A DNA stretch of 36,949 nucleotides, taken from positions 1 through 36,949 of the forward strand of contig OMIX01000073.1 in the NCBI GenBank assembly GCA_900299195.1. Direction: 5' to 3'. A program made the translations under genes and the position numbers. This DNA is from Deltaproteobacteria bacterium. Lineage in GTDB: Bacteria > Bdellovibrionota > FAC87 > UBA2466. Below, one piece after another: positions 17,774 through 36,652 of the stretch (positions within the stretch are counted from its first letter, which is position 1; the number at the start of each line of letters is the position of its first letter). Below the pieces are notes generated by a model. That model searched no databases and was not told where the DNA came from. It worked only from the letters and a program-made list of their open reading frames with translations.

Positions 17774-17853
17774 CAGCTTCTTAATAGCCAGACCCTTTTC
17801 TCCAATTTAGGATAACGCTGCGTCCTGTATTTGTGGTAGAACGGAGGCAGGCA

Positions 17854-20040
17854 ATGAATCAGGTTTTTAAAAGTTTAGCGTGGGTATTAGTTTTTGGGCT
17901 TTTTCCGGGATTTTTGGTAGGGGCCAACCCTCTATTTTTTCAAAGGCAGTTACCGACGGAATTTTTAAAAGCCGCCCCACTGGCTAGACCTAGAGATTTT
18001 AGAGCTCTAGAGCGGTTTTCGTTGGGCAATTTACAAGTCACAACCCATCGAGAAAATTCGGTAGATCTTCATTTGCCCCAAGCTCGACCCCTAGCTTTTA
18101 GTGGAATGCCTAAAGTTCCTCAATTATTACGAGTGTTTAAGATCGGAGCACGTCAAAGAGCCCAAGCCTATTTAGAGAATATTGTGGTTGAGGAAAGTTC
18201 AACAGCTTTACCTGTATCAAAAGTGAGTGAAGCTTACGTTTGGAGTATAAAGAGAAAATTAAAATTCAATTCGAAGCCTGGTGGGCGTTATTTTCCTGGG
18301 CAGCTTATTCAGAGTCGACAAAATAGAGATTCCTTATTTGTGAATCTTTTTCCAGTGCAGGTTGATTTGTGGACAGGAAAGATTCTTAAAGTAACTTCAG
18401 CAGATATTAAAGTGGCTTACTCGGAAGAGCCGCTCACCCTCGTGACTGAATTGGTCGAGTCCCCTTCAATTATTGTAACTTCTTCCAAACTTCAAAGGGG
18501 TGCTGAACTATTGAAAAAATACCACGAGGAAAAACTGGGGATTAAAACATCAGTAGTGACAGTGGAGGAAATCGCTGCCAGTGAGACTCCTATTGGGGAA
18601 GAACTGTTGCCTTCAGGGTATAAACTTTTAGACCAAAGGGATAATGCCGTGAAACCTTATCAACCCGATAAGGACACGGGGTACAATTACGAACTGGCGA
18701 GAAAGATTTCTCATTACCTCCAAAAACGGATGCATGATTCTAGTCCGTTAAAATATGTCACGATTTTGGGTAATTCTCAGATAGTCCCTCCTAGTTATTA
18801 TTTCGCCTATTATGTAGAGGTAAGTCGAAATTTTACTCCGACCGATGCGTGTTATGGAGCTGTTGAAAAGTGCACAGAACCTAAAGTAGCGGTGGGGCGT
18901 CTTCCCTTAGTCAGTGAAGAAGAAATTAAAAATTACATTGCTAAAGCAGAATCTTGGAGAGCTTTTTCTGAACAAAGTTCCCAAGAGTTATCACTTTTCG
19001 GGGGAAAAGCTTTTCCGCAAGCTGATATTTATGTGGGAGAATTAGGGACCCTAGGTGCTATCCAAGACCCCAAACTAGATTGGCAGGGGGTCAGGAAAAA
19101 CTTTAAAACGCAAAAACGGTATTTGAGAGAGGGTTTAGCTGAAGTTGTCAAAGGAGAATCTCAAACCCCGTTTGCGTATCACTTGGACCACGGCAATGGA
19201 AATGAATGGTATGTGGAGAACGAGTTTATTTCGTCCAATGATGTGGTTAGCTTGAGCGCTAAAGCCAGTGCGAATCGGCCGAGTGTGATGGTTTCTGTGA
19301 GTTGCACTAATGCTGCTTTTGATGAGCAGATCACTAATGAGTCGATTTTTGAAGATGCCAACCGGGGAAATGTATCGATTGGGACGAGTTTAGTTCGGTC
19401 GAGTGCGGGTGTGGTAGCTTACTTAGGCTCGGCTCGACCTGCGATTGGAATGCCGGTTTATCAATTTGATGATTTTGGAAATGTTGAGCTAACCGGGACC
19501 AATTATGGGCTTCAAATACTCGAATCATTCTATCAGAAATATGGAATTTACCGACGGGGAAGAGTTGGGGATTTTAGTTTGAAAGCCTTACAAGCTTTTG
19601 TTTTTGAAAATGGAAATAACATGGAAACGGATGAAAACCTTTGGAGTTATTTCATAACGGAATTGTTAGGGGATCCAGTTATTCCTCTTCCCAATCGAGT
19701 TAAAAGCAGTGAAAGCTTTGAACCGGGAAAATCCGCTTTGAAGCTTGATAACTCGGTGGGGTTTGGATTTCCTGTTTTGAGGCTTAAAGATTTTACAGGG
19801 GGGCGACTCCCTTTATCGTTGGCTAAGCCTGTTGAAGCTACTTTATTGAAGATATTGGAAAACGATTTTGGCGGGTACTTGGGGGAAGAGCTAATTTCTA
19901 CTCAAGTGATTAATGAGTCCGAAGAGGCTGGCCTGTCGTTAGACGCCAGTAATACCTTGTCGGAAGGTAAATACTTTTTGAGACTTGAAAATACCTTGGG
20001 AGTTCCTAGAGAAAGACAAATTTACTTTTCGGTAGAATGA
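17854..20040 (+). CDS. Secreted gingipain-like cysteine protease (peptidase C25)
   Basis: Predicted exported cysteine endopeptidase of 728 residues. GGAGG six bases before the ATG fixes the start, and residues 1-24 form a signal peptide (cleavage likely after VGA). A propeptide-like region (about 25-200) precedes the C25 domain. Landmarks of C25 are YVTILGNSQIVPPSYY, DACYGAVEKCTEPKVAVGRLP, the catalytic histidine in HLDHG (H446), the catalytic cysteine in MVSVSCTNAAFD (C484), and the terminal LLGDPVIPLP. The His-Cys spacing of 38 is near that of gingipain R. The C-terminal 90 residues look like a small beta domain; no clear type IX sorting domain is seen, so the export route beyond Sec is unclear. 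Specificity cannot be predicted. Confidence 0.88.
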   Translation: MNQVFKSLAWVLVFGLFPGFLVGANPLFFQRQLPTEFLKAAPLARPRDFRALERFSLGNLQVTTHRENSVDLHLPQARPLAFSGMPKVPQLLRVFKIGARQRAQAYLENIVVEESSTALPVSKVSEAYVWSIKRKLKFNSKPGGRYFPGQLIQSRQNRDSLFVNLFPVQVDLWTGKILKVTSADIKVAYSEEPLTLVTELVESPSIIVTSSKLQRGAELLKKYHEEKLGIKTSVVTVEEIAASETPIGEELLPSGYKLLDQRDNAVKPYQPDKDTGYNYELARKISHYLQKRMHDSSPLKYVTILGNSQIVPPSYYFAYYVEVSRNFTPTDACYGAVEKCTEPKVAVGRLPLVSEEEIKNYIAKAESWRAFSEQSSQELSLFGGKAFPQADIYVGELGTLGAIQDPKLDWQGVRKNFKTQKRYLREGLAEVVKGESQTPFAYHLDHGNGNEWYVENEFISSNDVVSLSAKASANRPSVMVSVSCTNAAFDEQITNESIFEDANRGNVSIGTSLVRSSAGVVAYLGSARPAIGMPVYQFDDFGNVELTGTNYGLQILESFYQKYGIYRRGRVGDFSLKALQAFVFENGNNMETDENLWSYFITELLGDPVIPLPNRVKSSESFEPGKSALKLDNSVGFGFPVLRLKDFTGGRLPLSLAKPVEATLLKILENDFGGYLGEELISTQVINESEEAGLSLDASNTLSEGKYFLRLENTLGVPRERQIYFSVE

Positions 20041-20789: not shown

Positions 20790-22073
20790 ATGAAGTCAAG
20801 ATTATTTAAAAATGGGCTAGCAGTTTTGGGGATAAGTTTCATTTTTACCATTGAACCCGCATGGGGGGCTCCAAGCTTTTGCGAAAAACTCTATAGCCTT
20901 TTGGGCCTCGGTTCAAAGAAAACAGAAGAGATTAATCACCAAGCTGAAGACATGAAAAGACCACCTGGAGAACTTTTGAGTCCGTTTAGTAAAGACATGA
21001 TGGCCCTTAGAAAGATTAGAGAGACTAAGGACAAAGAGGAAAAAGAACGGCTCTATGATGAGTACACAACAACATTTCCAGAAAAATGGTATGACAAGTA
21101 TTTTACTTGGGCTGCAAACGGGATGGTGGGCGGGCTTGCTCTGAAAGCTGCCGCAGGATACACCGGAGATCCGAATTCGCTTTTGTACGGTCCTGCAGCC
21201 GCTTTGACCGGTTATTATTTAGCTGATATCGGAAGTCAGGGACTACATAAAGCTCTCGATAGTTTTCTTTCAGATCGTCACCCCGTTTGGGGGGCGATGG
21301 TTCGCGCGTTTCGTGTTCATCATGATGTTCCGACCAATTTGAACCAAAACACCTACGCAGGAACTATTTCCCCTGTGGCGAAGGGTCTATTTCTTCCCAT
21401 TGCAGCCTCTTTAGCTACGACCTCAGATCCCACTACAGCCTTGTTTCTTTCGACCCTCTACTTTGGGGCTCTTCATGGGGTTGAGTTTCACAGGCAATCT
21501 CATCGGCCTGGCGGTCCAAGCAATAAGTTAATGAAATGGATACAAGACAATGGATTTGCAATTTCAAGAGAGCAGCACGCCGAGCATCACCGCCCCCCCT
21601 TTGGTGGGCACTATTCAGTTTTAAACAACTGGGCAGAACCCTTATTTGCTTACACCGGGGTATGGGACAAGTTAGATCGCTTGTATTGGAAGGTTTATAA
21701 GAAAATGCCCTACAACTGGATAACCAGTCCCAAGGATATCCCAGAAGATATCAGAAAAGAACTGACTCAAAAATTGGACTCTCTAATTCCCCAAGAATTG
21801 ATGGCAGCTCGAGAGGGCTATCCTCATCGTTGGCCTAAGAACGATCCCGAGTTTGCAAAAGCCGTGGATAAAGCAAATGTTCAATGGCGCCAACACTACA
21901 TTGAACACCGACAAAGATTTTTTAGAACTCTAGCGATGGTGGATGGGCATTATGACCAAGCACAACGAGAGTGGGCAGAGGAACAAAAATCACCTGAGAT
22001 GGAATGGATCTACCGCGGAGAGCTTCGCCCGTTGTTTGAAGAGGATAACGCTGTTGATGAGTCAATGAAATAG
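20790..22073 (+). CDS. PEDS1/CarF-type (Kua/TMEM189) lipid desaturase homologue
   Basis: Predicted membrane di-iron enzyme of 427 residues related to plasmanylethanolamine desaturase, which makes the vinyl-ether bond of plasmalogens (human PEDS1, myxobacterial CarF). The histidine clusters occur in family order: H153 after DIGSQGL, FRVHHDVP (H177, H178), H229 and HRQSH (H234, H238), EQHAEHH (H263, H266, H267), H274, then YSVLNNWAEPLFAYTGVWDKLD, matching the family ending. Hydrophobic segments at about 108-148 and 195-228 would span the membrane. Unusually, it has an N-terminal signal-peptide-like leader (cleavage likely after AWG) and about 110 extra C-terminal residues. It heads a three-gene operon with an acyltransferase and a lipase-fold protein. 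Substrate is inferred. Confidence 0.8.
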   Translation: MKSRLFKNGLAVLGISFIFTIEPAWGAPSFCEKLYSLLGLGSKKTEEINHQAEDMKRPPGELLSPFSKDMMALRKIRETKDKEEKERLYDEYTTTFPEKWYDKYFTWAANGMVGGLALKAAAGYTGDPNSLLYGPAAALTGYYLADIGSQGLHKALDSFLSDRHPVWGAMVRAFRVHHDVPTNLNQNTYAGTISPVAKGLFLPIAASLATTSDPTTALFLSTLYFGALHGVEFHRQSHRPGGPSNKLMKWIQDNGFAISREQHAEHHRPPFGGHYSVLNNWAEPLFAYTGVWDKLDRLYWKVYKKMPYNWITSPKDIPEDIRKELTQKLDSLIPQELMAAREGYPHRWPKNDPEFAKAVDKANVQWRQHYIEHRQRFFRTLAMVDGHYDQAQREWAEEQKSPEMEWIYRGELRPLFEEDNAVDESMK

Positions 22074-22086
22074 GGTGGGGGTAGTT

Positions 22087-23022
22087 ATGAATCGAATACG
22101 AATCATTTTAGTCGGTCTTGTTTTCTTGGCCTATTCCGAACAAGTAGCACATGCGGGCCTTTGCGAAAAATTAGCCCTACTGAGTCAATCTATTTCGGTC
22201 GGAGTTGAAGACGGCTATCAGGCGCGAGTCCAAGTTTCGGGCGAACGCAACTCCATGAGTATTTCAGTGGAAAGAGGACTCAATGGTGTCGCCCAGCCTG
22301 TGATTCTTTCAAGCGTTTCAGAGATTCTTAAAAATTTACATCAAGACTCAAGACCCCTTCCGGTGTTTCAAAAAGCTGCTGATGCTATGGGATTGAAAGT
22401 GATAACAGATGGACGGGCCTTAAGCGAAATTCCTGAATCCGGGCCATTACTCATTATCGCAAACCATCCTCTCTCGGGAGTGGATGGCATTGCGTTAGCC
22501 GGAGAAATATCAAAGGTTCGTAAAGACACTAAAGTTGTTTTGAACCAGATGTTGCAGGCCGTTCCTGGAGTAAAAGAAGCCACCATTGGAGTGGATGTGA
22601 CCAACCCAGCTTCTCGGGCTAATGCCCAGGCTTTTCGTGAAATGAATACCTGGGTAAAAGACGGACATGCGCTGATCATATTCCCGGCTGGAAATGTCTC
22701 TCGAAGGCAACCCGACGGGAGCATTGCGGATACTGAGTGGAGTAAAAGCATTGTTAAGATAACCCAAAGAAATGGAGCGCAAGTTTTGCCAGTTTTTGTG
22801 CATGGACAGCCGGGTTCTATCTTTAATGCCCTCGATCGAGTGAGCTCATCAGCCGCTAGTTCTTGGATTCCAAAAGAAATCCTTCGTCAGAGAGGGTCCA
22901 CAGTTCATTTAACTTTGGGGGCGCCCATTTCCGCTGAAAAGGTGAAAGTGTTTGAGGATGAAAGGGAGGCGGTCGAATTTTTAAGGAGAGAAACCTACCA
23001 GTTGGGAGAGAAGAAGCGGTGA
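22087..23022 (+). CDS. PlsC-type lysophospholipid acyltransferase with signal peptide
   Basis: Predicted glycerolipid acyltransferase of 311 residues of the OlsA/hemolysin-like branch. The catalytic block is ANHPLSGVDGIAL (His and Asp with five residues between, as in this branch), followed by the acceptor motif FPAGNVSRRQPDGSIAD and the downstream VLPVFVHGQPGSIFNALDR. The N-terminus is a typical signal peptide (cleavage likely after AHA), odd because PlsC enzymes normally use cytoplasmic acyl donors; it may instead be a membrane anchor. GGTGGGGG precedes the ATG at 22087. It lies 13 bp after the desaturase and overlaps the next gene by four bases. Confidence 0.85.
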   Translation: MNRIRIILVGLVFLAYSEQVAHAGLCEKLALLSQSISVGVEDGYQARVQVSGERNSMSISVERGLNGVAQPVILSSVSEILKNLHQDSRPLPVFQKAADAMGLKVITDGRALSEIPESGPLLIIANHPLSGVDGIALAGEISKVRKDTKVVLNQMLQAVPGVKEATIGVDVTNPASRANAQAFREMNTWVKDGHALIIFPAGNVSRRQPDGSIADTEWSKSIVKITQRNGAQVLPVFVHGQPGSIFNALDRVSSSAASSWIPKEILRQRGSTVHLTLGAPISAEKVKVFEDEREAVEFLRRETYQLGEKKR

Positions 23023-24038
23023 GAATGTTAGCCGTCATTCTGCAGATGCTGATTATTGGTTTTCTTCTGAGTTCTGTCGAGCTTAGGGCAGAACTTAGTC
23101 AAACAGCCTTTGCCGATGCTTTTAAACGATTTTATGGTGATTCCCAACTTCTCCCAAACGAAGAAAATCGTGAGAAACATAAGGACACGGTGTTTGTTTT
23201 AGTTAAAGGGTTTGGGGGGGATGAGCAGCCAGTTTCTTATTTTTATTTGTTGCCACTCAAAAAGGAGATTGAACGCCTAACTCAGTCTGTGGGGGAGACC
23301 GATCCGAAGAAAAAACGAGTTTTTGTTTTGGAGGGGAATTCAAAAACTGGATTCTTACCTAATGCTGTGAAACTTCAGACTGAGATGGAAGCTATCTTAA
23401 GAGAGATTCCAAAAGAGAGTAAAATTTATATTGTGGGCCATCGCAAAGGAGCAGTGGAGTCTTGGACAATGTTAATGAATTCTCCACAGATTTCTCAAGA
23501 ACGGCTTGCGGGAGCTTTGTTTTTGCAAGCGCCATTCCAAGGTAGCCCTTTTGCAGATTTTGTTATGTCAGGAAAAAATGCCGCTGACATAGAGACCTTC
23601 TCAGCAGATCCTATTCAATATATTTTGCGAACGGTTCTTTTATGGCGTGGCGCGAAGCCAACTTACAAAGAGGCGATTCAAGATATGACAACTCGGAATG
23701 CCTCAAATCATGTGGAAAGAGTTTTAGATCATCAAGGAAAAGATAAACAGGGTGATTTTTGGTCAAAGACTTTATTTCTGTGGACAAAGCATCAAACCCC
23801 GACCCTTCTTAAGTACTTTTTTCCTCCCAACAATGCCGTGATGGATACTTGCGCTAGAGCTCTGACCAAAATTTCTGGCAATCCGAATAATGATGGATTT
23901 GTGATGGTTCCCAACGCACAACTTCCTGTGCCACTCCAGGAGCGAACCCTCGTGTTGGACGGGTTTCATCATTCTGGATTCGATGTTGGCCGAGCCGGAA
24001 GAGCCCTAGGGAGGGCCTTGTTTTTATCTAACCCTTAA
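23019..24038 (+). CDS. Exported lipase-fold alpha/beta hydrolase lacking its nucleophile
   Basis: Protein of 339 residues with a signal peptide (cleavage likely after LRA). The alpha/beta-hydrolase frame is clear: TVFVLVKGFGG for the oxyanion-loop strand, KIYIVGHRKGAVES for the nucleophile elbow, LFLQAPFQGSPFADF next, and a C-terminal GFHHSGFD that would carry the catalytic histidine. The elbow normally reads G-H-S-x-G; here the serine is arginine (codon CGC), so classical hydrolysis is not expected unless the base is an error. The start may be GTG at 23019, overlapping the previous stop, or the in-frame ATG at 23025. It is the last gene of the lipid operon and may now bind rather than cleave lipid. 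Confidence 0.75.
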   Translation: MRMLAVILQMLIIGFLLSSVELRAELSQTAFADAFKRFYGDSQLLPNEENREKHKDTVFVLVKGFGGDEQPVSYFYLLPLKKEIERLTQSVGETDPKKKRVFVLEGNSKTGFLPNAVKLQTEMEAILREIPKESKIYIVGHRKGAVESWTMLMNSPQISQERLAGALFLQAPFQGSPFADFVMSGKNAADIETFSADPIQYILRTVLLWRGAKPTYKEAIQDMTTRNASNHVERVLDHQGKDKQGDFWSKTLFLWTKHQTPTLLKYFFPPNNAVMDTCARALTKISGNPNNDGFVMVPNAQLPVPLQERTLVLDGFHHSGFDVGRAGRALGRALFLSNP

Positions 24039-26235: not shown

Positions 26236-27720
26236 ATGCGTACTTTGCCAATGAAATCTTTTGATTCATTACTGGAAGGGCTTACTTTCGACGATGTCCT
26301 TCTTGTGCCTCGATTTTCGGAAATCTTACCCACTCAGGTCGACACTCAGAGCTCACTCACTCGTGAGATTCGACTCAAAATACCCTTGATTTCTGCTGCA
26401 ATGGACAAAGTCACAGAGAGTCAAACGGCTATTGTGATGGCGCGCCATGGAGGGGCTGGGGTTATTCACCGAAACTTACCTCCTGATAGACAAGCATTTG
26501 AGGTCGAAAAGGTTAAAAAAAGTGAGAGCGGAATGATTTTAGATCCCATTACTTTGGGGCCGAGTCAGACAGTTCAGGATGCTATCACTTTAATGAAAAA
26601 ACATGGAATTTCGGGATTCCCCATCACCGAGTCGGGAAAATTGGTCGGAATCGTGACCAATAGGGATTTAAGATTTGAAGAAAATTTAAGGCGTCCTATT
26701 CGCGAAGTGATGACGGGTGGAGAAAAACTCATCACCGGCCAAGAAGCGATTTCGATGGCTGACGCCGTGAAGTTGATGCACAAACATCGAATTGAAAAGC
26801 TTCCGATTGTAGACAAGGCTCAGAATTTAAAGGGTCTCATCACGATTAAAGACATGATGAAGACCATCAAACACCCACTAGCTAACCGAGATTCTAAAGG
26901 GCGTTTACGTTGTGGGGCTGCAGTAGGGGTGGGCCAGGAGGCTCAAACCCGAGTGGAATTGCTTCACAAAGCGGGAGTCGATTTTGTGGCGGTAGATACG
27001 GCTCATGGAGATTCCAAAGCCGTTTTAGATATCGTGAAGTGGATCAAACAAAATTATAGTGCTTTGTCGGTGGTGGCAGGGAATGTGGCGACTGCAGAAG
27101 GTGCCACCCATTTGTTTGAAGCCGGAGCCGATGCCATCAAAGTAGGAATGGGTTCTGGCTCGATCTGTACTACTCGAGTGATTGCTGGAGTGGGTCTTCC
27201 TCAATTTACAGCGATTCGTAATTGTGCGCCTGTTGCCAAAAAATTCGGCCGGTGTTTGATTGCCGACGGAGGAATCAAATATTCGGGTGATATTGTAAAG
27301 GCATTAGCGGCGGGTGCCGATGTGGTCATGATGGGTAGCTTGTTTGCGGGAACAGACGAAGCCCCAGGTGACATGGTTTTTTACCAAGGTAGAACTTACA
27401 AAACTTATCGAGGGATGGGTTCACTTGAGGCGATGAAAGAGGGGAATCGAGATCGTTATGGGCAAGGTTCGGTGGAGTCTCACGAGTTGGTTCCTGAGGG
27501 AATTGAGGGGATGGTCCCTTATCGTGGAGAACTGGCCCAAGTGGTGTTTCAGTTGGTTGGGGGAGTGAGAGCCGGATTAGGTTATTTAGGGTGTCGAGAT
27601 TTAAACGAACTTAGAGAAAAAGCGGAGTTCGTCCGAATTTCCCCTCAGGGACTTAAAGAGTCCCACGTACACGATGTTTATGTCACAAAAGAAGCTCCTA
27701 ACTACAAACCCAATGACTAA
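26236..27720 (+). CDS. guaB: Inosine-5'-monophosphate dehydrogenase
   Basis: Oxidises IMP to XMP with NAD, the committed step of GMP synthesis; 494 residues. The N-terminal [15 protein letters not shown] leads into two CBS domains (about 105-215), then the catalytic barrel with the active-site loop [11 protein letters not shown] (catalytic cysteine), the phosphate-binding [20 protein letters not shown] and the flap region [16 protein letters not shown] lies upstream of the ATG. A 6-bp stem, AATCCC with GGGATT (26188-26219), sits just before the ribosome site. Its stop overlaps the guaA start. Confidence 0.97.
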
Positions 27721-29272
27721 GACTCATCAAACGAATTCGACTGAAGATGTTCCTGTTGTTATTTTGGATTTTGGTTCGCAATTTACTCAATTGATCGCTC
27801 GAGCCGTAAGGGCTCTTGGGGTCTACTGCGAGATTGAGCCTTTTTCGGTCGATTTGAAAAAGCTTAAGGCTAAAAACCCAAAAGCTATTATCCTTTCAGG
27901 TGGTCCCTCGAGTGTAAAAACTAAGTCCGCCCCTAAAATTGCCGAAGCTCTTTTTGAATGGAATTTGCCTGTTTTGGGAATTTGTTACGGAATGCAGTTA
28001 ATTTCCCACATGAAATCTGGAAAGCTTGAGAGTGGAAGGGCGAGAGAGTACGGCCATTGTGAAATTGAAGTTGTAAAAAACTCAGGCCTTTTTCAAGGGT
28101 TTAAAGTAGGGCAACTTCTTCCGGTTTGGATGAGTCACGGCGATAGCGTGGGAGAAGTTCCTGCTCAGGGTGTAGTTACCGCGAAAAGCCAAAAGTGTGT
28201 GGTAGCTTTTCAATACGAGAATCTGCATGCGATTCAATTCCACCCCGAGGTGGCTCACACTCCCATTGGGACTCAGATTATTTCAAATTTCCTATTCAAA
28301 ATTGCGAATTTAAGTCCTAACTGGAAAATGGAAAAGTTTCTGGAAACCCACCAACGTCAAATTTTGGCTCAAGTAGGAGAATCTCAAGTCGTGGGTGGAG
28401 TGAGTGGAGGGGTGGACTCTACAGTTTTGGCCGTTTTTCTAGGGAAAGTTTTGGGGAAACGATTTCATCCGATTTTGATTGATAATGGATTGCTTAGGAA
28501 AAATGAAGCCAAAGAAGTCGAAGCTTTCTTGAAAAAATCGGGAGTTAACCTCAAAGTGGTTGATGCAAGCCAGCTTTTTTTAAAGAAACTAAAAGGGGTC
28601 ACCGATCCTGAGAAGAAAAGAAAAATTATTGGCAAAACTTTTATCGAGGTTTTTGAAAAAGAGTGTCGCAAAATAAAAAATGCTAAATTTTTAGCTCAGG
28701 GCACTTTGTACCCTGATGTGATTGAGAGTGTTTCAGTCAAAGGTCCCAGCCACACCATCAAAACTCATCATAATGTGGGTGGGTTGCCGAAAAACATGAA
28801 GTTGAAATTGATAGAGCCTTTTCGGGAGTTATTTAAAGACGAGGTTAGGCAGTTGGGGAGTCAGTTGGGGATTCCGCAGGGTGTGCTCGAAAGGCATCCG
28901 TTTCCAGGTCCTGGGTTAGCGGTAAGAATTCTAGGAAATATCACTACTGATCGACTTGATTTGCTCCGCGAAGCCGATTCTATTTTTGTGGAGGAGTTAA
29001 AGGACAAGAGTTTATATCAAGAAATTTGGCAGGCATTTGCTGTCTTGTTACCTATTCAAACTGTAGGAGTCATGGGAGATGCTAGGACTTATGAATCGGT
29101 GGTTTCCTTGCGAGCTGTAACGAGTCGAGATGGGATGACGGCAGATTGGTACGGATTTGAAAAAGAGGCTTTGGGACGGATTGCTAACCGTATTATCAAT
29201 GAGGTTCCGGGAATTAATCGAGTGGTTTATGATGTTTCATCTAAGCCCCCCGCTACGATTGAGTGGGAATAA
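27713..29272 (+). CDS. guaA: GMP synthase (glutamine-hydrolysing)
   Basis: Amidates XMP to GMP; 519 residues from the ATG at 27713. That start overlaps the guaB stop by eight bases and gives the expected length; an in-frame ATG farther upstream is inside guaB. The class I glutaminase domain has GICYGMQLISH with its cysteine and HPEVAHTPIG. The ATP pyrophosphatase loop is GGVSGGVDSTVLAV near residue 220, and the C-terminal dimer domain ends YDVSSKPPATIEWE as in all GuaA. No Shine-Dalgarno is seen, consistent with coupling to guaB. Only five bases separate it from the next gene, a tryptophan-catabolic gene. Confidence 0.97.
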   Translation: MTKTHQTNSTEDVPVVILDFGSQFTQLIARAVRALGVYCEIEPFSVDLKKLKAKNPKAIILSGGPSSVKTKSAPKIAEALFEWNLPVLGICYGMQLISHMKSGKLESGRAREYGHCEIEVVKNSGLFQGFKVGQLLPVWMSHGDSVGEVPAQGVVTAKSQKCVVAFQYENLHAIQFHPEVAHTPIGTQIISNFLFKIANLSPNWKMEKFLETHQRQILAQVGESQVVGGVSGGVDSTVLAVFLGKVLGKRFHPILIDNGLLRKNEAKEVEAFLKKSGVNLKVVDASQLFLKKLKGVTDPEKKRKIIGKTFIEVFEKECRKIKNAKFLAQGTLYPDVIESVSVKGPSHTIKTHHNVGGLPKNMKLKLIEPFRELFKDEVRQLGSQLGIPQGVLERHPFPGPGLAVRILGNITTDRLDLLREADSIFVEELKDKSLYQEIWQAFAVLLPIQTVGVMGDARTYESVVSLRAVTSRDGMTADWYGFEKEALGRIANRIINEVPGINRVVYDVSSKPPATIEWE

Positions 29273-29277
29273 ATTTT

Positions 29278-29709
29278 ATGTCTAAACCAAAAATTGAACC
29301 TGTTTTTTGCCCTGAAGCTCCCAAACCCTTGGGGAACTATTCTCATGCGGTGACTTATGGGGAATTGATTTATGTTTCTGGCATTGCTTCTAGAGATTTT
29401 GTGACTGATCAGGTGCCAGGTTTAAAAATGGGGGAAAAGGGTGCTAAGATCTCTTATGACATCAAGCTTGAGACGCAGGCGACTTTGGAAAATATTCGAA
29501 AAATTTTAATTTCTGCAGGAAGTGATTTGGAACATGTGATTGAAGTGAACACCTATTTACTGGATATGCGAGATTTTAAAGCTTACAACGAAGTTTTTGC
29601 ACTATATTTCCCAAACCATCGTCCAGCACGAACCACGATTGCTGTAGCGGGGCTACCTGGTAACATCGCTATCGAAATGAAAGTGATTGCCGTAAAAAAA
29701 TCAGCTTAA
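29278..29709 (+). CDS. amnD: RidA-family protein, probable 2-aminomuconate deaminase
   Basis: Protein of 143 residues of the YjgF/YER057c/UK114 family: APKPLGNYSHAVTYGELIYVSGI at the start, ETQATLENIRKIL in the middle and the closing PARTTIAVAGLPGNIAIEMKVIAV. General RidA proteins hydrolyse enamines. The longer insert DQVPGLKMGEKGAKISYDIK and the position directly before the semialdehyde dehydrogenase point to 2-aminomuconate deaminase, releasing ammonia to give 4-oxalocrotonate. The specific activity rests on context. The ATG at 29278 is chosen because the frame upstream overlaps the guaA end. Confidence 0.82.
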   Translation: MSKPKIEPVFCPEAPKPLGNYSHAVTYGELIYVSGIASRDFVTDQVPGLKMGEKGAKISYDIKLETQATLENIRKILISAGSDLEHVIEVNTYLLDMRDFKAYNEVFALYFPNHRPARTTIAVAGLPGNIAIEMKVIAVKKSA

Positions 29710-29722
29710 AAGAAATAATGCT

Positions 29723-31249
29723 ATGGAAAGTTTATTCAAATCCTTAGAAGACGAAATTGTTTCGGGAAAAGATATCTCGGTTCCTGAGTTTTTAAAGACT
29801 TGGCTTTCAAAGCCTAAACTGAATTTTATAGGCAATCAACTGTGTGAGTCCAACTCAAAGAAAGTGTTCTGCAATACCAACCCGGCCACGGAAGAAGACT
29901 TAAATTGGGTCGTGCTCTCCGATAAAGTAGATGTTGAAAAAGCCATCACCGTAGCTAGAGAGGCTTTTAACAAAGGAGATTGGGCGAAGTTAACTCAGTC
30001 TCAACGGGCTCAGGTAGTCAAAAAGTTAGGGGATTTGATCTTACAACACCGAGCGCCCTTAGCCATTTTAGAAAGTCTGGATACGGGTAAGCCCATCTTT
30101 GAAACTTTCGAAGGGGATATCCCCCGAGCTGCGAGCAACTTCCATTTTTTTGCAGATTTCGCCAAAGAGGAGGAGACACTCCAATTTCAAAATGGCTTAG
30201 ACGAACATCAGGCCTTTCGTGAGCCCTTAGGGGTGGTGGCCTTAATCACACCTTGGAATTTGCCTCTCTATTTGGAGACCTGGAAAATCGCTCCGGCACT
30301 GATGATGGGCAATAGCATTGTTTTAAAACCCTCGGAGTTAACGCCTCTTACGGCGTGTTATTTTGCTGAATTGACTTTGCAAGCTGGGTTGCCCCCCGGT
30401 GTTTTCAATGTGATTCATGGATTTGGAGATAAAGCCGCAGGTGAGTTTTTGGTGAGCGATCCTAGAATCGATGCGATTTCATTTACTGGAGAAACCTCGA
30501 CGGGCAGAGCCATCATGCGTTCGGCAGCCGTAGGGCCCACTCGGGTTTCCTTTGAACTTGGAGGAAAAGGGGCTACCGTCATTTTTGAAGATGCCGATAT
30601 CGAAATGGCTGCGACTGAAACTTTGAGGGCGGGGTTTAGAAACCAAGGACAGATATGCCTTGCCACTCCTAGGGTGTTTGTCCATGAGTCTGTCTATTCT
30701 AAATTTAAGGAACTTTTTGTTGAGAAAGCTAAGCAGATCAAAGTAGGAAATCCCCTTAATTATTCAACGAGGATGGGGTCTTTGATTGGGAGAGAGCACT
30801 GGGAAAAAGTGATGAGTTACGTCTGTAGAGTGGAAGAACCTATGAAAGTGCTTCTAGGGGGAGATAGACCCAAGGAGATCAAAAAAGGGGCATTTTTGGG
30901 CCCGACAATTTTAGAAAATGTTCCGTTGGATCATAAGATTAGCCGAGAGGAAATCTTCGGCCCTGTCGTTTCGATTTATTCCTTCTCGGATGAAAGTGCG
31001 GTGGTTCGAGAAATCAATTCTACTCAATACGGTTTGTCGGCTTCGATTTGGACACGAAATACAGAAAGAGCTCAACGGGTCGCTCGGTCCATTCATGCCG
31101 GGCTGGTTTGGATTAATTGTTGGTTTGCTCGAGACTTGCGAGTTCCTTTTGGCGGACAAAAGCGAAGTGGTGTGGGGCGTGAGGGAGGCAAGCACAGTTT
31201 GGATTTTTTTAGTGAGTGGAAAAGTGTCTGTTTAAGGAGAACTCAATAA
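29723..31249 (+). CDS. amnC: Probable 2-aminomuconate 6-semialdehyde dehydrogenase
   Basis: NAD-dependent aldehyde dehydrogenase of 508 residues. Conserved landmarks are LITPWNLP with N179, SFTGETSTG, VSFELGGKGA with the general base E278, and NQGQICLATPR with the nucleophile C312. The sequence style is that of the ALDH8/hydroxymuconic-semialdehyde branch, and its neighbours (deaminase, decarboxylase, hydratase) fix the likely substrate as 2-aminomuconate semialdehyde. The N-terminus is about 20 residues longer than typical. The stop overlaps the next ATG by one base (TAATG). Confidence 0.9.
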   Translation: MESLFKSLEDEIVSGKDISVPEFLKTWLSKPKLNFIGNQLCESNSKKVFCNTNPATEEDLNWVVLSDKVDVEKAITVAREAFNKGDWAKLTQSQRAQVVKKLGDLILQHRAPLAILESLDTGKPIFETFEGDIPRAASNFHFFADFAKEEETLQFQNGLDEHQAFREPLGVVALITPWNLPLYLETWKIAPALMMGNSIVLKPSELTPLTACYFAELTLQAGLPPGVFNVIHGFGDKAAGEFLVSDPRIDAISFTGETSTGRAIMRSAAVGPTRVSFELGGKGATVIFEDADIEMAATETLRAGFRNQGQICLATPRVFVHESVYSKFKELFVEKAKQIKVGNPLNYSTRMGSLIGREHWEKVMSYVCRVEEPMKVLLGGDRPKEIKKGAFLGPTILENVPLDHKISREEIFGPVVSIYSFSDESAVVREINSTQYGLSASIWTRNTERAQRVARSIHAGLVWINCWFARDLRVPFGGQKRSGVGREGGKHSLDFFSEWKSVCLRRTQ

Positions 31250-32052
31250 TGGCTTTATCTCAACCACAGTTATTAGAAATTGCAGACAAACTGGATAAAG
31301 CGGAAGCTACCTGTCAACCCATTCCGCCTTTGGTGGAAACTTACCCCGCCCTCGAAGAAAAAGATGCCTATCAAATTCAGTGGATGGTGGCTTCCAGAGC
31401 ACTTCGAGCTCAACGACATCTTTTAGGTTATAAAATCGGGTTGACTAGTTTAGAGGCGCAAAAGCACTTTCGGGTTTTCGAGCCTGATTACGGTCATCTT
31501 TTTGATTCGATGTCGATTAACGAGGATTCTGAAATCGATCTTTCACAACTGATTCAGCCTAAAATTGAGGGGGAAATCGCTTTTGTTTTAGGAAAAGATT
31601 TAAGAGGTCCTGGAATCACTCCGGCTCAAGTGATGCGTGCCATCGATTATGTAACGACCAGTTTTGAGATTATTGATAGTCGAATTCAAAATTGGAAAAT
31701 TACAGCGAGAGATACCATAGCAGACAATGGATCTTCGTCTAGATTTGTTCTGTCGGGGATGAAGCGTCGATTAGAAGGACTCAGTTTGCCCCATTTAGGG
31801 ATGGCCCTTTATAAAAATAATGACGTCGTAGTTACAGGTTCAGGAGCTGCAGTGATGGGAAATCCCTTGAATGCCGTAGCCTTTTTAGCCAACACGCTCG
31901 CTAAACATGATCGAGGATTACTTGAAGGGCAGGTCATATTATCCGGAAGTATTGGGGGCATGGTGACGATGCAAGCTGGAGACCATTTTAGTGTAGAGAT
32001 TCAAAAGTTAGGTCGAGTCTCTGTTCGTTGCAAAGGAAAACTCAATGAATAA
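31249..32052 (+). CDS. amnF: 2-oxopent-4-enoate (2-hydroxypenta-2,4-dienoate) hydratase
   Basis: Adds water to 2-hydroxypenta-2,4-dienoate to form 4-hydroxy-2-oxovalerate; 267 residues. Both this and the next gene belong to the hydratase/decarboxylase superfamily. This one matches the hydratase (XylJ/DmpE) side in FEPDYGHLFDSM, IQPKIEGEIAFVLGKDL, IDSRIQNWKITARDTIADN and VILSGSIGGM. AAGGAGAA before the ATG at 31249 settles the start. It overlaps the decarboxylase gene by eight bases; the two enzymes are known to work as a complex in meta-cleavage pathways. Confidence 0.87.
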   Translation: MALSQPQLLEIADKLDKAEATCQPIPPLVETYPALEEKDAYQIQWMVASRALRAQRHLLGYKIGLTSLEAQKHFRVFEPDYGHLFDSMSINEDSEIDLSQLIQPKIEGEIAFVLGKDLRGPGITPAQVMRAIDYVTTSFEIIDSRIQNWKITARDTIADNGSSSRFVLSGMKRRLEGLSLPHLGMALYKNNDVVVTGSGAAVMGNPLNAVAFLANTLAKHDRGLLEGQVILSGSIGGMVTMQAGDHFSVEIQKLGRVSVRCKGKLNE

Positions 32053-32815
32053 CCAAGCGATTGCAGAGTTGCTGCGTAATGCGATGTTAAATCGGACTCC
32101 GGTCACTCAGATTAGTAAAATAAGGCCAGAATTTTCTTTGTCAGATGCAAATGAGGTACAGGAAATCGGATTTAATTTAGCGCAAGCTCAGGGAGAGAAG
32201 TTGGCGGGTTATAAGATGGGCTTGACGTCAAAAGCCAAGCAACGGGATGTGAATGTATTTGAACCTATTCGCGGATACATGTTGGCTAGTACTGAAATCC
32301 CAAAAAATGGGATTGTGAAAATGAATTCTAGGATTCATCCCAGAGTGGAACCCGAAGTGGCCGTAGTGCTCAAAGAAGAATTGCGGGGTCCTGGAGTGAC
32401 GTTACGAGATGTTGTGAGATCCATCGAGGGCATTTACCCAGCTCTTGAGATTGTCGATAGCCGGTATGAAGGTTTTATTTTTAAACTTGAGGATGTCATT
32501 GCCGATAATACTTCGGCCGCAGGTTTTATGGTGGGGAGAGTGAATCTGTTGCCACAAATAGATGAACTCAACCTCATGGGAATCACTGTAAGAAAAAATG
32601 GGGCCATCGTCGAAACGGGAGCTCCAGCGGCGGTATTGGGAGATCCTCTTTTGTCGGTAATGTCTTTAGCCAATAGTTTAGCTGAAGAAGCCAAAAGTAT
32701 TCCTGCGGGTTTGGTGGTTTTAACTGGAGGAATCACTCAGAGTGTTTCGTTTGTGAAAGGGGATAAAATCGAAGTGGAATGGCCTCAGGAAATTCTTTCT
32801 TTTATTGCTGAGTAG
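32045..32815 (+). CDS. amnE: 4-oxalocrotonate decarboxylase
   Basis: Decarboxylates 4-oxalocrotonate to 2-hydroxypenta-2,4-dienoate; 256 residues. It is assigned to the decarboxylase (XylI/DmpH) side by GYKMGLTSKAKQ, IHPRVEPEVAVVLKEEL, LEIVDSRYEGFIFKLEDVI and VVLTGGITQSVSFVKGD. It feeds the hydratase encoded just upstream. Its ATG overlaps the hydratase stop, and only seven bases separate its own stop from the fusion gene. The following aldolase and acylating acetaldehyde dehydrogenase, needed to reach pyruvate and acetyl-CoA, are not in this window. Confidence 0.87.
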   Translation: MNNQAIAELLRNAMLNRTPVTQISKIRPEFSLSDANEVQEIGFNLAQAQGEKLAGYKMGLTSKAKQRDVNVFEPIRGYMLASTEIPKNGIVKMNSRIHPRVEPEVAVVLKEELRGPGVTLRDVVRSIEGIYPALEIVDSRYEGFIFKLEDVIADNTSAAGFMVGRVNLLPQIDELNLMGITVRKNGAIVETGAPAAVLGDPLLSVMSLANSLAEEAKSIPAGLVVLTGGITQSVSFVKGDKIEVEWPQEILSFIAE

Positions 32816-32822
32816 TAAATCT

Positions 32823-34403
32823 ATGTTCGATAGAACCCAACTATTTTCTTTAAAGCGTGGTGGAATAGTCGAAAACCGTATTCATGGGGAAATAGTCGTT
32901 CATGACGGGGAACGGGTGATTTTTCAGACCGATGATGTTTTAGGTGAATACCCCATGAGATCTCTTTTGAAACCGTACCAATTTTTGGCAACAGGGTTAG
33001 GAGATAAAGAAATAGATTCAAAATACGTTCCTTCGTTGGGATCCATTTCAGCCAGTGCCGAACAGGTGGAATATTTAAAAAAATGGTATTTAGATAAAAA
33101 ACACCAAGATCTTATTTCTAAACTTAGATTAGCGCCTTGTTACCCTGCAGATGAACAGAATCGAGCGAAGATTAAAGAAAAAGGGGAAGGGCCGTCCCCT
33201 TTTTTTCATATGTGTTTTTCAAAACATTTGGCCATTCTTGAGAGTTGTGTCCAAAATGGCTGGGATCTCACGACTTATTACCAAATGGACCATCCCTATC
33301 ATCAAAGATTAATTCAGATAGTTTCGGAAGTTTTAGAGACCGATATTTCTAAAAATCGTTTCTGCGTCGATGGCTGCAAATTACCGTCCCCTATTTTTTC
33401 AATGGGGGATATGGCAAAGCTTTATCAGCGACTTGCCGCAGCTGAAGGGGATACCTCACTTCATAAGATACAGCAAAAAATGTTGAAACACCCTTCCTGG
33501 ATTGGGGGACCGGAGCGAATCGATACTCTGTTGATGCAACGAAATCCCGGGTTGATTGCGAAAGAGGGAGCTGATGGACTTTTGGGTCTGGCTATCCTTC
33601 CTACTTTTAATTATCCACGAGGATTGGGGATTGTGGTTAAAATTTGGGCTGGGTACTATCCCAAATTAGCCGCTCTTGCTTTGGTGCCTTTATTTAAAGC
33701 TCTGGGTTTGAAAACGGTGGAAGAGGTCTCTTCTGACCATCAGATTGAATTTCACTATGAACCCTTTCAAAAACCGACGGGTAAATATTGGGATATCAGT
33801 CCTGAATTAAGTGAGTCGATTGCGGTGTGGCCCGGGGATGTAAAGTTTCAGCAGAGAAAGTCCCTTGATGTTGAACAAGGTGACCACTTAACTTTATCTA
33901 GTTTCTCGACGACAGTTCATGTAGGGGCTCATACTGATGCTCTTAACCATTTTGAAAAGAACAGTCACGGAATTGAAGCCCACTCGTTGAATCCCTACTG
34001 GGGCAGTTGCCAAGTGATGGAAGTGAAAAAAATAGAGGATAAACGGATCGAAATTTCAGACATTCAAAATAAAAAAATATTGGCTCAGCGGCTATTGTTT
34101 AAAACAGGTTCGTTTCCTAATCCTCATCAGTTTAATGAAGATTTTTGTTATTTCTCACCCGAAGTGATTGAGTATTTGTCTAGGCACGGAGTCATTTTAG
34201 TGGGCATTGATACCCCATCGATAGATTCTTTTCATTCGAAAGAATTGCCTGCCCACCATGCCACTGCCCAATGGGGTGTTCATATTTTAGAAGGGGTGGT
34301 GTTAGACAATATCGAGGAGGGGATGTATGTGCTATCCGCTTTGCCTCTTCGAATTAAAGGGTCGGATGCGAGTCCAGTCAGAGCTGTTTTGACCCCAAAA
34401 TAA
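32823..34403 (+). CDS. kynB: Fusion: asparaginase-II-type amidase + kynurenine formamidase (KynB)
   Basis: Single uninterrupted frame of 526 residues. Residues 1-305 match the asparaginase II family: IHGEIVVHDGERV at the start, the S47-x2-K50 catalytic pair in MRSLLKP, S76 and S78 in SISASAEQ, C131 with K134-H135, D183-G-C185, and K247 in AKEGADG. Residues 320-526 are a full KynB, which hydrolyses N-formylkynurenine to kynurenine and formate. The metal ligands H366, H370, D372, H376, H478 and E490 are all present, as is IDTPSIDS. Normal KynB is about 210 residues and stands alone. The start is the ATG at 32823; an in-frame TTG 18 bases earlier overlaps the previous gene. Last gene of the gua-amn operon. 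Confidence 0.9.
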   Translation: MFDRTQLFSLKRGGIVENRIHGEIVVHDGERVIFQTDDVLGEYPMRSLLKPYQFLATGLGDKEIDSKYVPSLGSISASAEQVEYLKKWYLDKKHQDLISKLRLAPCYPADEQNRAKIKEKGEGPSPFFHMCFSKHLAILESCVQNGWDLTTYYQMDHPYHQRLIQIVSEVLETDISKNRFCVDGCKLPSPIFSMGDMAKLYQRLAAAEGDTSLHKIQQKMLKHPSWIGGPERIDTLLMQRNPGLIAKEGADGLLGLAILPTFNYPRGLGIVVKIWAGYYPKLAALALVPLFKALGLKTVEEVSSDHQIEFHYEPFQKPTGKYWDISPELSESIAVWPGDVKFQQRKSLDVEQGDHLTLSSFSTTVHVGAHTDALNHFEKNSHGIEAHSLNPYWGSCQVMEVKKIEDKRIEISDIQNKKILAQRLLFKTGSFPNPHQFNEDFCYFSPEVIEYLSRHGVILVGIDTPSIDSFHSKELPAHHATAQWGVHILEGVVLDNIEEGMYVLSALPLRIKGSDASPVRAVLTPK

Positions 34404-34420: not shown

Positions 34421-35212
34421 TCAATACCCCGGAGATAAATGAGTTCTCAACTCCCATAACTCGGGAAAGAATCTTTTAGATAACGTTTGGGTTAAGTAAG
34501 CGACTCCTAGTGAGCCACCCGTGCCTTTTTTCATTCCGATCATTCGCTCTACCATTTGCACATGACGAAATCTCCAAAGTAACAACTGTTCATCATAATC
34601 AATAAAAGCTTCGCAAAGAGAGCGTAGATCGTGGTGCTTAGGATTTTGATAAATCTCTAAAAGACCGGTACGAACGGCGTCCGCATCGAGTGTGGTCACC
34701 AATTTTCGTTGGACTAAAAGTTTTTTGAAGGATTGGGGAAGATTCCCTTCCTGAGCAAGTTCACTTAATTTGGGGAGCCATTCTGGTTCTAACGGAGCAA
34801 ATTTTCGATACTCTTCGATTGAAGCCCCCGAGATAATTTCAAGTTCCCTAAACTGTAAACTCTGAAATCCACTGGCTGGGTTCAGATTGGATCTGAATTT
34901 ATTGAAATCGGTCGGGGTCATCGTCTCTAGAATATTGAGTTGTTGAACCAGAACTTTGAATATTTCAGAAACTCTCTTTAAAGTGTGAAAGCAGGCTATA
35001 AGGTCATTGCTTTCTAAAGACTGAATCAGAGATCTAAGCTCAAACAGAACCAGTTTAAACCAAAGCTCATAGACCTGATGAATGATAATAAAAAGCGGTT
35101 CATCGTGAGCTGCGGGTTGTGCGATTGGGTTTTGAAGTTCAAGAAGTTCTTTGACTTTTAAGTAGGAAGAATAGGTTAGCTCTTTGCCCTGGGTTGGAAT
35201 TTTAGGATTCAA
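34421..35212 (-). CDS. kynA: Tryptophan 2,3-dioxygenase
   Basis: Heme enzyme opening the indole ring of L-tryptophan to N-formylkynurenine, the substrate of the convergent KynB domain. The predicted length is 263 residues from a TTG at 35212, chosen because GGAAGG lies five bases upstream and LTYSSYL, where the family begins, follows shortly; an ATG at 35299 would add 29 non-family residues. Active-site residues are present: H45 in IIIHQVYELWFK, R107 in FNKFRSNLNPASGFQS, the heme ligand H217 in WRFRHVQM, and the GTGGS loop at 230-234. It overlaps the response-regulator gene by 11 bases and has no promoter of its own in sight. Confidence 0.95.
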   Translation of the reverse strand: MNPKIPTQGKELTYSSYLKVKELLELQNPIAQPAAHDEPLFIIIHQVYELWFKLVLFELRSLIQSLESNDLIACFHTLKRVSEIFKVLVQQLNILETMTPTDFNKFRSNLNPASGFQSLQFRELEIISGASIEEYRKFAPLEPEWLPKLSELAQEGNLPQSFKKLLVQRKLVTTLDADAVRTGLLEIYQNPKHHDLRSLCEAFIDYDEQLLLWRFRHVQMVERMIGMKKGTGGSLGVAYLTQTLSKRFFPELWELRTHLSPGY

Positions 35213-36608
35213 GGTTGCCTTCCCATCCACCGTATTCACGCGGATTGATATTGTATTTTTTAATTTTCCTAAGCAGCGTATTTTTAGGAATGTTTGCAAT
35301 TTCAGCCGTTAAGTTGATTCGACCACTGTTTTTGCGTAAAGCTTGAACGATAAATTCTCTTTCAAAAGTTTCTTTCCCTTTTTCCCAGTCGAGATTGTCA
35401 TTTTGCAAAGAGGCTTTTCGAGCTGCATTCTGTTTTTTTGCAGCCTTTTTGATGTATTCAGGAAGACTGGCGAAAGTAAGAATAGAGGAAGATTCTACGA
35501 CGAAACCGTGTTCGATGGCATTCTCAAGTTCTCGAATGTTTCCTGGCCAGTGAAAAGTTTCTAAGGCAGACAGCGCGTCAGGAGCGATCATTTGAATTCT
35601 CTCACCATGCTCTACATTGAACTTTTCAATGAAATGATTCACAAGCCCAATAATATCATCGCGCCGCTCGCGCAGTGGAGGAAGAAAAATCGGCATGACG
35701 TTAAGCCGGTAGTAAAGATCCTCTCGGAACTTTCCGTCCTGTATCATTTTTTCAAGGTCGCGGTTGGTCGCTGCGATAATTCGAACATCCGATTTAATTT
35801 CCCGAGAACTTCCTACGGGGGTAAAAGAATGGTCTTGCAAAACTCGAAGTAACTTCACTTGAGTAGCTGGACTCGTATCTCCGATTTCGTCTAAAAACAA
35901 AGTGCCTTTGGCTGCGAATTGAAATTTACCAATGTGCCGCTGGTCTGCGCCCGTAAAAGCGCCTTTTTCATGACCAAACAACTCACTTTCGATTAAAGTT
36001 TCGGGAATAGCCGCACAATTGACTGCGACAAAGGGGCCATCTTTTCTTGGACTGTTGAAATGAATCGCTCGAGCTACCAGCTCTTTGCCTGTTCCATTTT
36101 CTCCGCGGATAAGAACTGAAGTGTTGACCCGAGTGAGCTTTTCGACCACTTGAAACACTCGCTTCATTTCTCGGCTTTGACCCACACATTCTCTACCTTC
36201 GCCGGGAGTCAACATGGGCGCCGACAAACTGATCTTGTGGATCATGTCATAGGCTTGTTTAGCTTTGGAAACCAATTCGATCAATGTTTGTTCGTTGATG
36301 GGTTTTTCAAGGTAATCAAAGGCCCCTTCGCGCATCGCTTCGACGGCATCTTTCACGTTAGCATGAGCAGTGAGTAGGGCGACTGTAGTTGAAATTTCAT
36401 GGTCTCGAATATGTTTAAGGAGCTCTAGGCCGGTCATGCGCGGCATGCGAATATCACAAAGGACCAAGGAAAAGGGGGTGTGAGCCAATTTTTGGGCGGC
36501 TTCAAGGCCATCACTGGCTTCATCAACCTCATATCCTCGAGAGGAGAGAAGGCTCGCAACTTGTTTGCGTAAGGCTTCTTCGTCATCTACGACCAAAATG
36601 GAATACAT
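35202..36608 (-). CDS. NtrC-family sigma-54-dependent response regulator
   Basis: Transcription activator of 468 residues. The receiver domain (about 1-120) has the acidic pair D8/D9, the phosphorylation site D52 in CDIRMPRMTG, and K104 in YLEKP. The AAA+ domain (about 145-375) has Walker A GENGTGKE, the sigma-54 contact loop GAFTGA, FLDEIGD and the closing HWPGNIRELENAIEH. A Fis-type helix-turn-helix ends the protein (INLTAEIANIPKNTLLRKIKKY). It should activate sigma-54 promoters on phosphorylation. The start is the ATG at 36608; an upstream TTG in frame is less likely. kynA overlaps its 3' end, and the kinase gene lies upstream. Its signal is unknown. Confidence 0.95.
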   Translation of the reverse strand: MYSILVVDDEEALRKQVASLLSSRGYEVDEASDGLEAAQKLAHTPFSLVLCDIRMPRMTGLELLKHIRDHEISTTVALLTAHANVKDAVEAMREGAFDYLEKPINEQTLIELVSKAKQAYDMIHKISLSAPMLTPGEGRECVGQSREMKRVFQVVEKLTRVNTSVLIRGENGTGKELVARAIHFNSPRKDGPFVAVNCAAIPETLIESELFGHEKGAFTGADQRHIGKFQFAAKGTLFLDEIGDTSPATQVKLLRVLQDHSFTPVGSSREIKSDVRIIAATNRDLEKMIQDGKFREDLYYRLNVMPIFLPPLRERRDDIIGLVNHFIEKFNVEHGERIQMIAPDALSALETFHWPGNIRELENAIEHGFVVESSSILTFASLPEYIKKAAKKQNAARKASLQNDNLDWEKGKETFEREFIVQALRKNSGRINLTAEIANIPKNTLLRKIKKYNINPREYGGWEGNLES

Positions 36609-36652
36609 TTGGAACCCCAACCTGCTTAAATTAACCGATTTTAAGCGCGATA

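Follow-up and report, generated by a model that had tools for sequence, protein, structure and literature searches.

Analysis of a 36,949-nucleotide stretch of DNA (called the window below; contig C73 of a 2.83 Mb draft genome from a freshwater Bdellovibrio relative) revealed a single gene in which an asparaginase-II-type domain (AspII) is joined to a domain of kynurenine formamidase type (KynB). The fusion is a genuine two-domain protein and a new combination of already known domain families. With confidence that stands about midway, we propose that it would act as a bifunctional tryptophan-catabolic hydrolase, whose AspII part would come from an aryl-L-aspartate branch leading to 2-aminophenol. 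Judged from gene content, gene order and exclusion patterns, tryptophan breakdown via 2-aminophenol in bacteria and archaea looks like an apparently undescribed route.

One open frame encodes two hydrolase domains

The fusion gene was found at positions 32823-34403 of the forward strand, on which all features below lie unless stated otherwise, as an uninterrupted ATG-to-stop frame of 526 amino acids. An in-frame TTG at 32805 offers an alternative upstream start (532 amino acids), and the ATG is kept as the start among relatives. In Pfam, the N-terminal part matched PF06089 Asparaginase_II (residues 10-303, positions 32850-33731; E 1.6e-50, 172 bits, cut-off 25) and the C-terminal part matched PF04199 Cyclase (residues 324-468, E 1.6e-17), while in NCBIfam residues 321-524 (33783-34394) were aligned with model positions 1-204 of 206 of TIGR03035 arylformamidase (E 1.4e-57). 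The gap between these borders leaves an inter-domain linker of residues 304-320 (33732-33782), with low pLDDT at about residues 317-319. An AlphaFold2 model built from ten sequences (mean pLDDT 76, pTM 0.60) was fair in the first domain, where most blocks had pLDDT 71-95, and partly poor in the second; Foldseek matched it to the class-3 asparaginase ReAV (E 1.7e-20) and to KynB structures (E 1.2e-12). A first-pass annotation, made from the letters of the window, had described one frame with two amide-hydrolysing domains and an architecture of which no example had been described; the domain and structure searches agreed with the former claim, and the literature searched contained no description of such a protein.

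Because the window is one contig from a draft genome, we considered whether the fusion might be an artefact of assembly or of a frameshift. At the junction, both other forward frames were interrupted by stops. Eight other genomes, each from its own assembly, and the Polyangiaceae locus L061 also had stop-free fused frames with the same domain order, and all readable congeners were fused, none split. An artefact is thereby ruled out, and we give it practically no credence.

Besides the window's genome, the fused gene was complete or nearly so in G001, G002, G003, G009, G010, G012, G013, G014 and L061, and it was incomplete in G004 and G005, where it reaches the contig end. G001-G005 belong to the window's genus, G010, G012 and G013 to one genus, G009 to another and G014 to another family, so that the carriers span four genera from two Bdellovibrionota families plus one Polyangiaceae MAG. 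The congeners and other carriers are MAGs, several of them lake-derived. In the AspII tree, the AspII parts of the fusions formed a single clade (support 100/99), with G014 as sister of the window's genus (97/93). No fusion was found in the plasmid collection, and stand-alone KynB was common among relatives within the phylum.

The C-terminal half is a KynB-like domain

The C-terminal domain was matched to the KynB of PDB entry 4cob (E 2e-38). As the first-pass annotation had claimed, all six KynB metal ligands are kept, and they were invariant in ten fusions. H366, H370, D372 and H376 (33918-33950) would form the binuclear metal site, and H478 and E490 (34254-34292) would be the other ligands; the metal ligands of BaKynB include His50, His54 and Asp56, comparable to the first group, and Glu173, comparable to the second (PMC4243253). 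The score against TIGR03035 was 195 bits, under the curated equivalog cut-off of 223.05, and most stand-alone KynB matches in related clusters likewise fell under this cut-off. We filed the C-terminal half as a divergent KynB-like domain because of the six ligands and the full-length match, with the sub-cut-off score as a caveat; on these grounds its identity as KynB is probable but not certain, and it is very probably a working enzyme of this kind.

The N-terminal half keeps the class 3 asparaginase site in a separate clade

The closest solved structures to the AspII domain were ReAV and ReAIV, and phmmer matched it to ReAV in the PDB (E 2e-16). In ReAV, zinc and Arg47 bind the substrate by its alpha-amino and carboxyl groups while Ser48 attacks the side-chain carbonyl, and roles have been described for Zn, R47, S48 and K51 (PMC12292245, PMC12951835). 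The first-pass annotation had listed the asparaginase II catalytic residues as retained, and each was matched to ReAV by alignment: S47, K50, C131, K134, D183, C185 and K247 correspond to S48, K51, C135, K138, D187, C189 and K263. By their alignment with ReAV R47/S48/K51, R46-S47-L-L-K50 (32958-32972) would supply the carboxylate anchor, the nucleophilic serine and the base lysine (roles from PMC12292245). C131-F-S-K134-H135 (33213-33227) includes the Cys and Lys zinc ligands and a fusion-specific F132, and D183-G184-C185 (33369-33377) the active-site Asp and the other zinc-ligand Cys, so that the Cys-Lys-Cys zinc site (C131, K134, C185) is present. K247-E-G-A-D-G (33561-33578) holds the lysine of the second tandem within the clade's KEGADG signature. 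Also retained were R46, H135 and a Tyr that corresponds to ReAV Y156. For ReAV S80, two alignments disagreed between S74 and S76 (33042-33050), either of which may be the second-tandem serine and both of which were invariant in the fusions. By each structural feature tested except this alignment-ambiguous second serine, the AspII domain belongs to the PF06089 fold family.

The positions of ReAV His81, Ser136 and Gly137 were, however, substituted in 18/18 full fusion rows, while the His and the Gly were retained in 67/67 other rows. The AspII domain also fell outside the asparaginase references with support of 100/99, in a tree whose references were ReAV and two canonical-like sequences only. 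Because it does not group with these references, the name L-asparaginase is withheld, and we treat the domain as part of a separate PF06089 clade and not as an ordinary asparaginase.

These results bear on the reading of the AspII half as an ordinary class 3 L-asparaginase, which would split Asn into Asp and ammonia and be fused to KynB because both serve amino-acid breakdown. Such a reading accommodates the retention of the ReAV residues for catalysis, zinc binding and substrate anchoring and the choice of ReAV and ReAIV as nearest solved structures, and it needs no further enzyme for its substrate, hence is compatible with the window's genome. It fits poorly with the three substituted positions and with the grouping of AspII among kynurenine-linked proteins, apart from the canonical references, as well as with the gene neighbourhoods described below; we consider it unlikely, though a contender to be taken seriously. 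The earlier suggestion that ammonia would be released from Asn or Gln was thus not supported as stated. For Gln, the characterised class 3 enzymes ReAV and ReAIV show no glutaminase activity (PMC10917881), and a glutaminase role was rejected; for Asn, the tree, the substitutions in every full fusion and the neighbourhoods, which point to a kynurenine-derived aryl L-aspartyl substrate, all speak otherwise.

Two further roles were considered and rejected. AspII as a replacement of 2-aminomuconate deaminase is made superfluous by RidA, whose gene already lies in the operon of the fusion and also in most clusters. AspII as the deformylase of N-formylkynurenine conflicts with its fold, which grips the alpha-amino-acid end and attacks the beta-carbonyl, distant from the formyl group; KynB is moreover retained by most relatives (five Poseidoniales genomes had no KynB match).

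The window operon and the classical route of its host

Four genes precede the fusion: a RidA-family 2-aminomuconate deaminase (amnD-like, 29263-29709; best PDB match 6izh, E 3.8e-23), a 2-aminomuconate 6-semialdehyde dehydrogenase (AMSDH, amnC-like, 29723-31249; best PDB match 4i1w, E 1e-128), a 2-oxopent-4-enoate hydratase-like gene (amnF-like, 31216-32052; best model TIGR03220, E 2.1e-77, below cut-off) and a 4-oxalocrotonate decarboxylase-like gene (amnE-like, 32045-32815; best model TIGR03218, E 3e-66, below cut-off), which ends just ahead of the fusion start. Convergent with the fusion, on the reverse strand, lies tryptophan 2,3-dioxygenase (TDO, 34421-35299; PF03301, E 2.7e-59). The window thus holds the lower pathway amnC, D, E and F together with TDO (29263-32815 and 34421-35299), in the order RidA-AMSDH-hydratase-decarboxylase-fusion-TDO, and the convergent fusion/TDO pair recurred at Bdellovibrionota fusion loci.

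Several features of the surroundings were also recorded. The TDO frame overlaps the end of a same-strand NtrC-type regulator gene (35202-36620); this NtrC-TDO pair is kept in most relatives and may reflect sigma-54-linked control. Directly upstream of the kynurenine operon lies guaB-guaA (26236-29272), a neighbourhood retained in several relatives. Farther upstream, the window encodes a peptidase family C25 (gingipain-type) protein of 735 amino acids (17833-20040) and, at 20790-24038, a lipid-desaturase-domain protein followed by an acyltransferase-like and a lipase-like frame, the latter two recognised by eye.

Contig C42 of the same genome carried one cluster with HAO, ACMSD, KynU and KMO. 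The window's organism therefore encodes a classical route that takes tryptophan as far as the 2-oxopentenoate stage and leaves no step for the AspII domain.

AspII genes elsewhere are mostly accompanied by LLM and 2-aminophenol genes

With the AspII alignment of the fusions as query, a scan of 84,980 species genomes kept 80 loci, 70 after the fusions were set aside. Near the AspII gene in these 70 loci, a gene for a luciferase-like monooxygenase (LLM) was found in 55, AMSDH in 54, LigB in 48 and RidA in 43. The LigB pair of the Oligoflexus locus L069 was matched to solved structures of 2-aminophenol 1,6-dioxygenase (beta E 4.6e-117, alpha E 7.5e-60), and 2-aminophenol is therefore pointed to as the intermediate. 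TDO was detected in 27/28 AspII-clade genomes as against 2/14 controls. Both this association and the presence of LLM and 2-aminophenol dioxygenase as neighbours at most loci argue against an ordinary asparaginase. Poseidoniales archaea carried the same gene set, and the genome of the cultured species Sulfidibacter corallicola contained both LLM and TDO.

LLM was present in G010, G012, G013, G014 and L061, and in all of these except G014 it lay directly upstream of the fusion. In G014, the order LigB-RidA-AMSDH-hydratase-decarboxylase-LLM ran up to a contig edge, and the fusion, with a truncated start, stood at another contig edge beside TDO; this order is identical to that of the window except that the window lacks LigB and LLM. 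The LigB of G014 includes an alpha-type protein. In G010 and G013, LLM was seen to occupy the place of the amn-like genes beside guaB-guaA.

The presence of LLM and that of kynureninase excluded each other. The LLM-bearing close relatives had neither KMO nor KynU, and KynU was found in 0/30 LLM genomes versus 8/11 AspII genomes without LLM (Fisher p 1.7e-6, a value that ignores shared ancestry). Kynureninase scored above its family cut-off in 2/28 AspII-clade genomes, both without this LLM. Apart from the window's genus, G009 and two Obscuribacterales genomes (G074, G080) combined an AspII gene with KynU while lacking this LLM. The MsnO8-like LLMs of three other Melainabacteria genomes belong to a different subfamily and were not counted as this LLM.

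LLM is distant from every characterised enzyme and, as a single sequence, had no match in the PDB. Its model (pLDDT 82) took the luciferase fold and was matched to type II Baeyer-Villiger enzymes and also to alkanesulfonate monooxygenases. The former group includes bacterial luciferases and diketocamphane monooxygenases (PMC8706424). For LLM, we infer Baeyer-Villiger chemistry from pathway logic; its distance from known enzymes and its match to sulfonate monooxygenases count against the proposal.

Some loci showed arrangements of their own. A 2-aminophenol dioxygenase alpha-like subunit fused to a RidA 2-aminomuconate deaminase domain was observed at positions 9382-10878 of L069, and the same was seen in many loci. 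The Poseidoniales genomes (G072 and G083-G086, with loci including L078) carried TDO, with LLM, AspII and AMSDH at the loci and LigB in most, and these five genomes gave no TIGR03035 match. In the Melainabacteria loci L065, L089 and L112, which lie outside the fusion clade, the AspII and KynB genes were immediate neighbours, followed in L065 and L089 by a BtpA-like gene. TDO was found beside arginase-family and beta-eliminating-lyase genes, with KynB nearby, at positions 2600-5726 of L048 and 9953-13000 of L049, whose genomes (G051 and G045) also had an LLM/AspII/LigB cluster elsewhere. At most LLM-linked loci, among them L067, L073 and L078, the zinc-ligand lysine (ReAV K138) was replaced, by Glu in 47/67 non-fusion rows and by His in 5; in the His rows both cysteines were also replaced, by Ser and Asp. 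These replacements suggest a different metal site in the LLM-linked AspII clade.

A proposed route from kynurenine to 2-aminophenol

Domains, residues, neighbourhoods and co-occurrence were read from the sequences, and from them we infer the entire chemistry of the new branch and the activity of the fusion in the window's genome today. The overall route would lead from tryptophan through formylkynurenine and kynurenine to an aryl aspartate, made by LLM, and from there, by way of AspII, to Asp and 2-aminophenol and on to aminomuconate. The KynB domain would remove formate from N-formylkynurenine, KynB before LLM being one possible order. LLM would insert oxygen between the kynurenine ring and the ketone in a Baeyer-Villiger reaction, and the beta-(2-aminophenyl) ester of Asp would result. 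Kynurenine combines an aryl ketone with an L-aspartyl-like side chain, and 2-aminophenol, the product to which AmnBA points, has a hydroxyl group on the ring where that side chain stood. This insertion followed by hydrolysis would yield exactly 2-aminophenol and L-Asp. By general chemistry, an aryl ester bearing an ortho-amino group should rearrange to the anilide; the ester could accordingly shift to N4-(2-hydroxyphenyl)asparagine, and this would explain the recruitment of an asparaginase-fold enzyme. In the AspII site, zinc (C131/K134/C185) and R46 would grip the alpha-amino and carboxyl groups of the L-aspartyl substrate, and K50 would activate S47 for its attack on the beta-carbonyl, with release of L-Asp and 2-aminophenol. 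AmnBA would then open the 2-aminophenol, and the product would pass through the AmnC/D/E/F steps, for which the window operon still has the genes.

Persistence of the fusion in the window's genus

No LLM was detected in the window's genome and AmnB had no match there; neither was found in the window's genus, save for an unrelated LLM-family match in G004. With the full KMO/KynU/HAO/ACMSD set present, the proposed aryl aspartate substrate is therefore left without a known source in the window's genome, and this counts against the proposal. On the simplest reading, the ancestor of the genus would have had the 2-aminophenol branch and then lost LLM and AmnBA, and the genus would now reach the shared 2-aminomuconic semialdehyde via KMO/KynU/HAO/ACMSD. 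Since AspII is kept with KynU and without LLM in G009 and the two Obscuribacterales, its role may not depend on LLM.

The same losses could mean that the AspII domain is a leftover that has stopped converting any substrate and now does no more than support the structure or dimerisation of KynB, and this is the more conceivable in a phylum where KynB acts alone in many relatives. Against this, every AspII catalytic residue was invariant across the window's genus and in G009, and Ser-Lys tandems are not required for a purely structural role. No window-genus-specific change was found at the AspII catalytic sites. The AspII/KynB divergence ratio was 0.95-1.34 in the window's genus (four members, without LLM) versus 1.26-1.38 in the LLM-bearing genus, so AspII did not diverge faster relative to KynB. 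By these measures, the constraint on AspII in the window's genus is not relaxed; the unchanged catalytic residues and the lack of excess divergence indicate that the domain is probably still an enzyme there, and we regard a leftover as improbable.

It is also conceivable, with a still smaller chance, that AspII hydrolyses another kynurenine-pathway metabolite in KMO/kynureninase genomes and that the LLM link is a second use. The domain does stand beside or fused to KynB in two lineages that are unrelated to each other, have kynureninase and lack LLM, namely the window's genus with G009, and the Obscuribacterales G074/G080. Yet G035, G039 and G057 had the KMO branch and otherwise complete clusters with no AspII gene, and we know of no L-aspartyl amide or ester in the KMO/kynureninase branch. 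We would lean, about as far as an evenly tipped balance allows, on the reading that the fusion unites two hydrolases of the 2-aminophenol route and has stayed active in a genus now using KMO/kynureninase instead, where its AspII domain would probably still cleave an L-aspartyl compound.

Comparison with known systems

The literature searched, mostly outside subscription journals, contained no description of the fusion, of a route from kynurenine to 2-aminophenol, or of kynurenine in connection with Baeyer-Villiger chemistry. Obligate predatory bacteria have been reported to possess TDO in all cases, with later kynurenine genes unrecognised, and a pathway of unknown kind was suggested (PMC4646340). 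If the proposal is true, the genes would have been overlooked in predators since their families carry no kynurenine label. It would likewise mean a second way to cleave kynurenine, replacing kynureninase in many bacteria and marine Poseidoniales archaea, and would give a concrete substrate to a PF06089 clade presently annotated as asparaginase.

The C-terminal half shares with bacterial KynB (4cob, 4co9, 4cog) the whole domain length, the six ligands and the adjacency to tryptophan dioxygenase, but the fusion carries an additional N-terminal enzyme domain of 320 residues and scores below the TIGR03035 cut-off. With ReAV and ReAIV of Rhizobium etli, the AspII domain shares the fold, the Ser-Lys pair, the Cys-Lys-Cys zinc site and the substrate-holding Arg and Asp; it differs from them in overall sequence (about 20-22% identity in structural alignment), in the changed H81, S136 and G137 and in an Asp in place of C249, and only AspII is fused to KynB and set in a kynurenine context. 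LLM belongs to the fold class of type II Baeyer-Villiger monooxygenases such as diketocamphane monooxygenase, but at very low identity and as a separate family, absent from the window's genome. The classical route from kynurenine through 3-hydroxyanthranilate to 2-aminomuconate (KMO, KynU, HAO, ACMSD) has its lower pathway in common with the window operon, whereas it requires no asparaginase-like enzyme, and relatives with the classical route alone were without the AspII domain. The amnBACDFE cluster for 2-aminophenol breakdown in Burkholderia xenovorans LB400 has been described with no link to tryptophan or kynurenine (PMC3790839). Its C, D, E and F functions are also found in the window operon and the clusters of the relatives add the B and A subunits; in contrast to LB400, those clusters are tied to TDO, KynB, LLM and the AspII protein.
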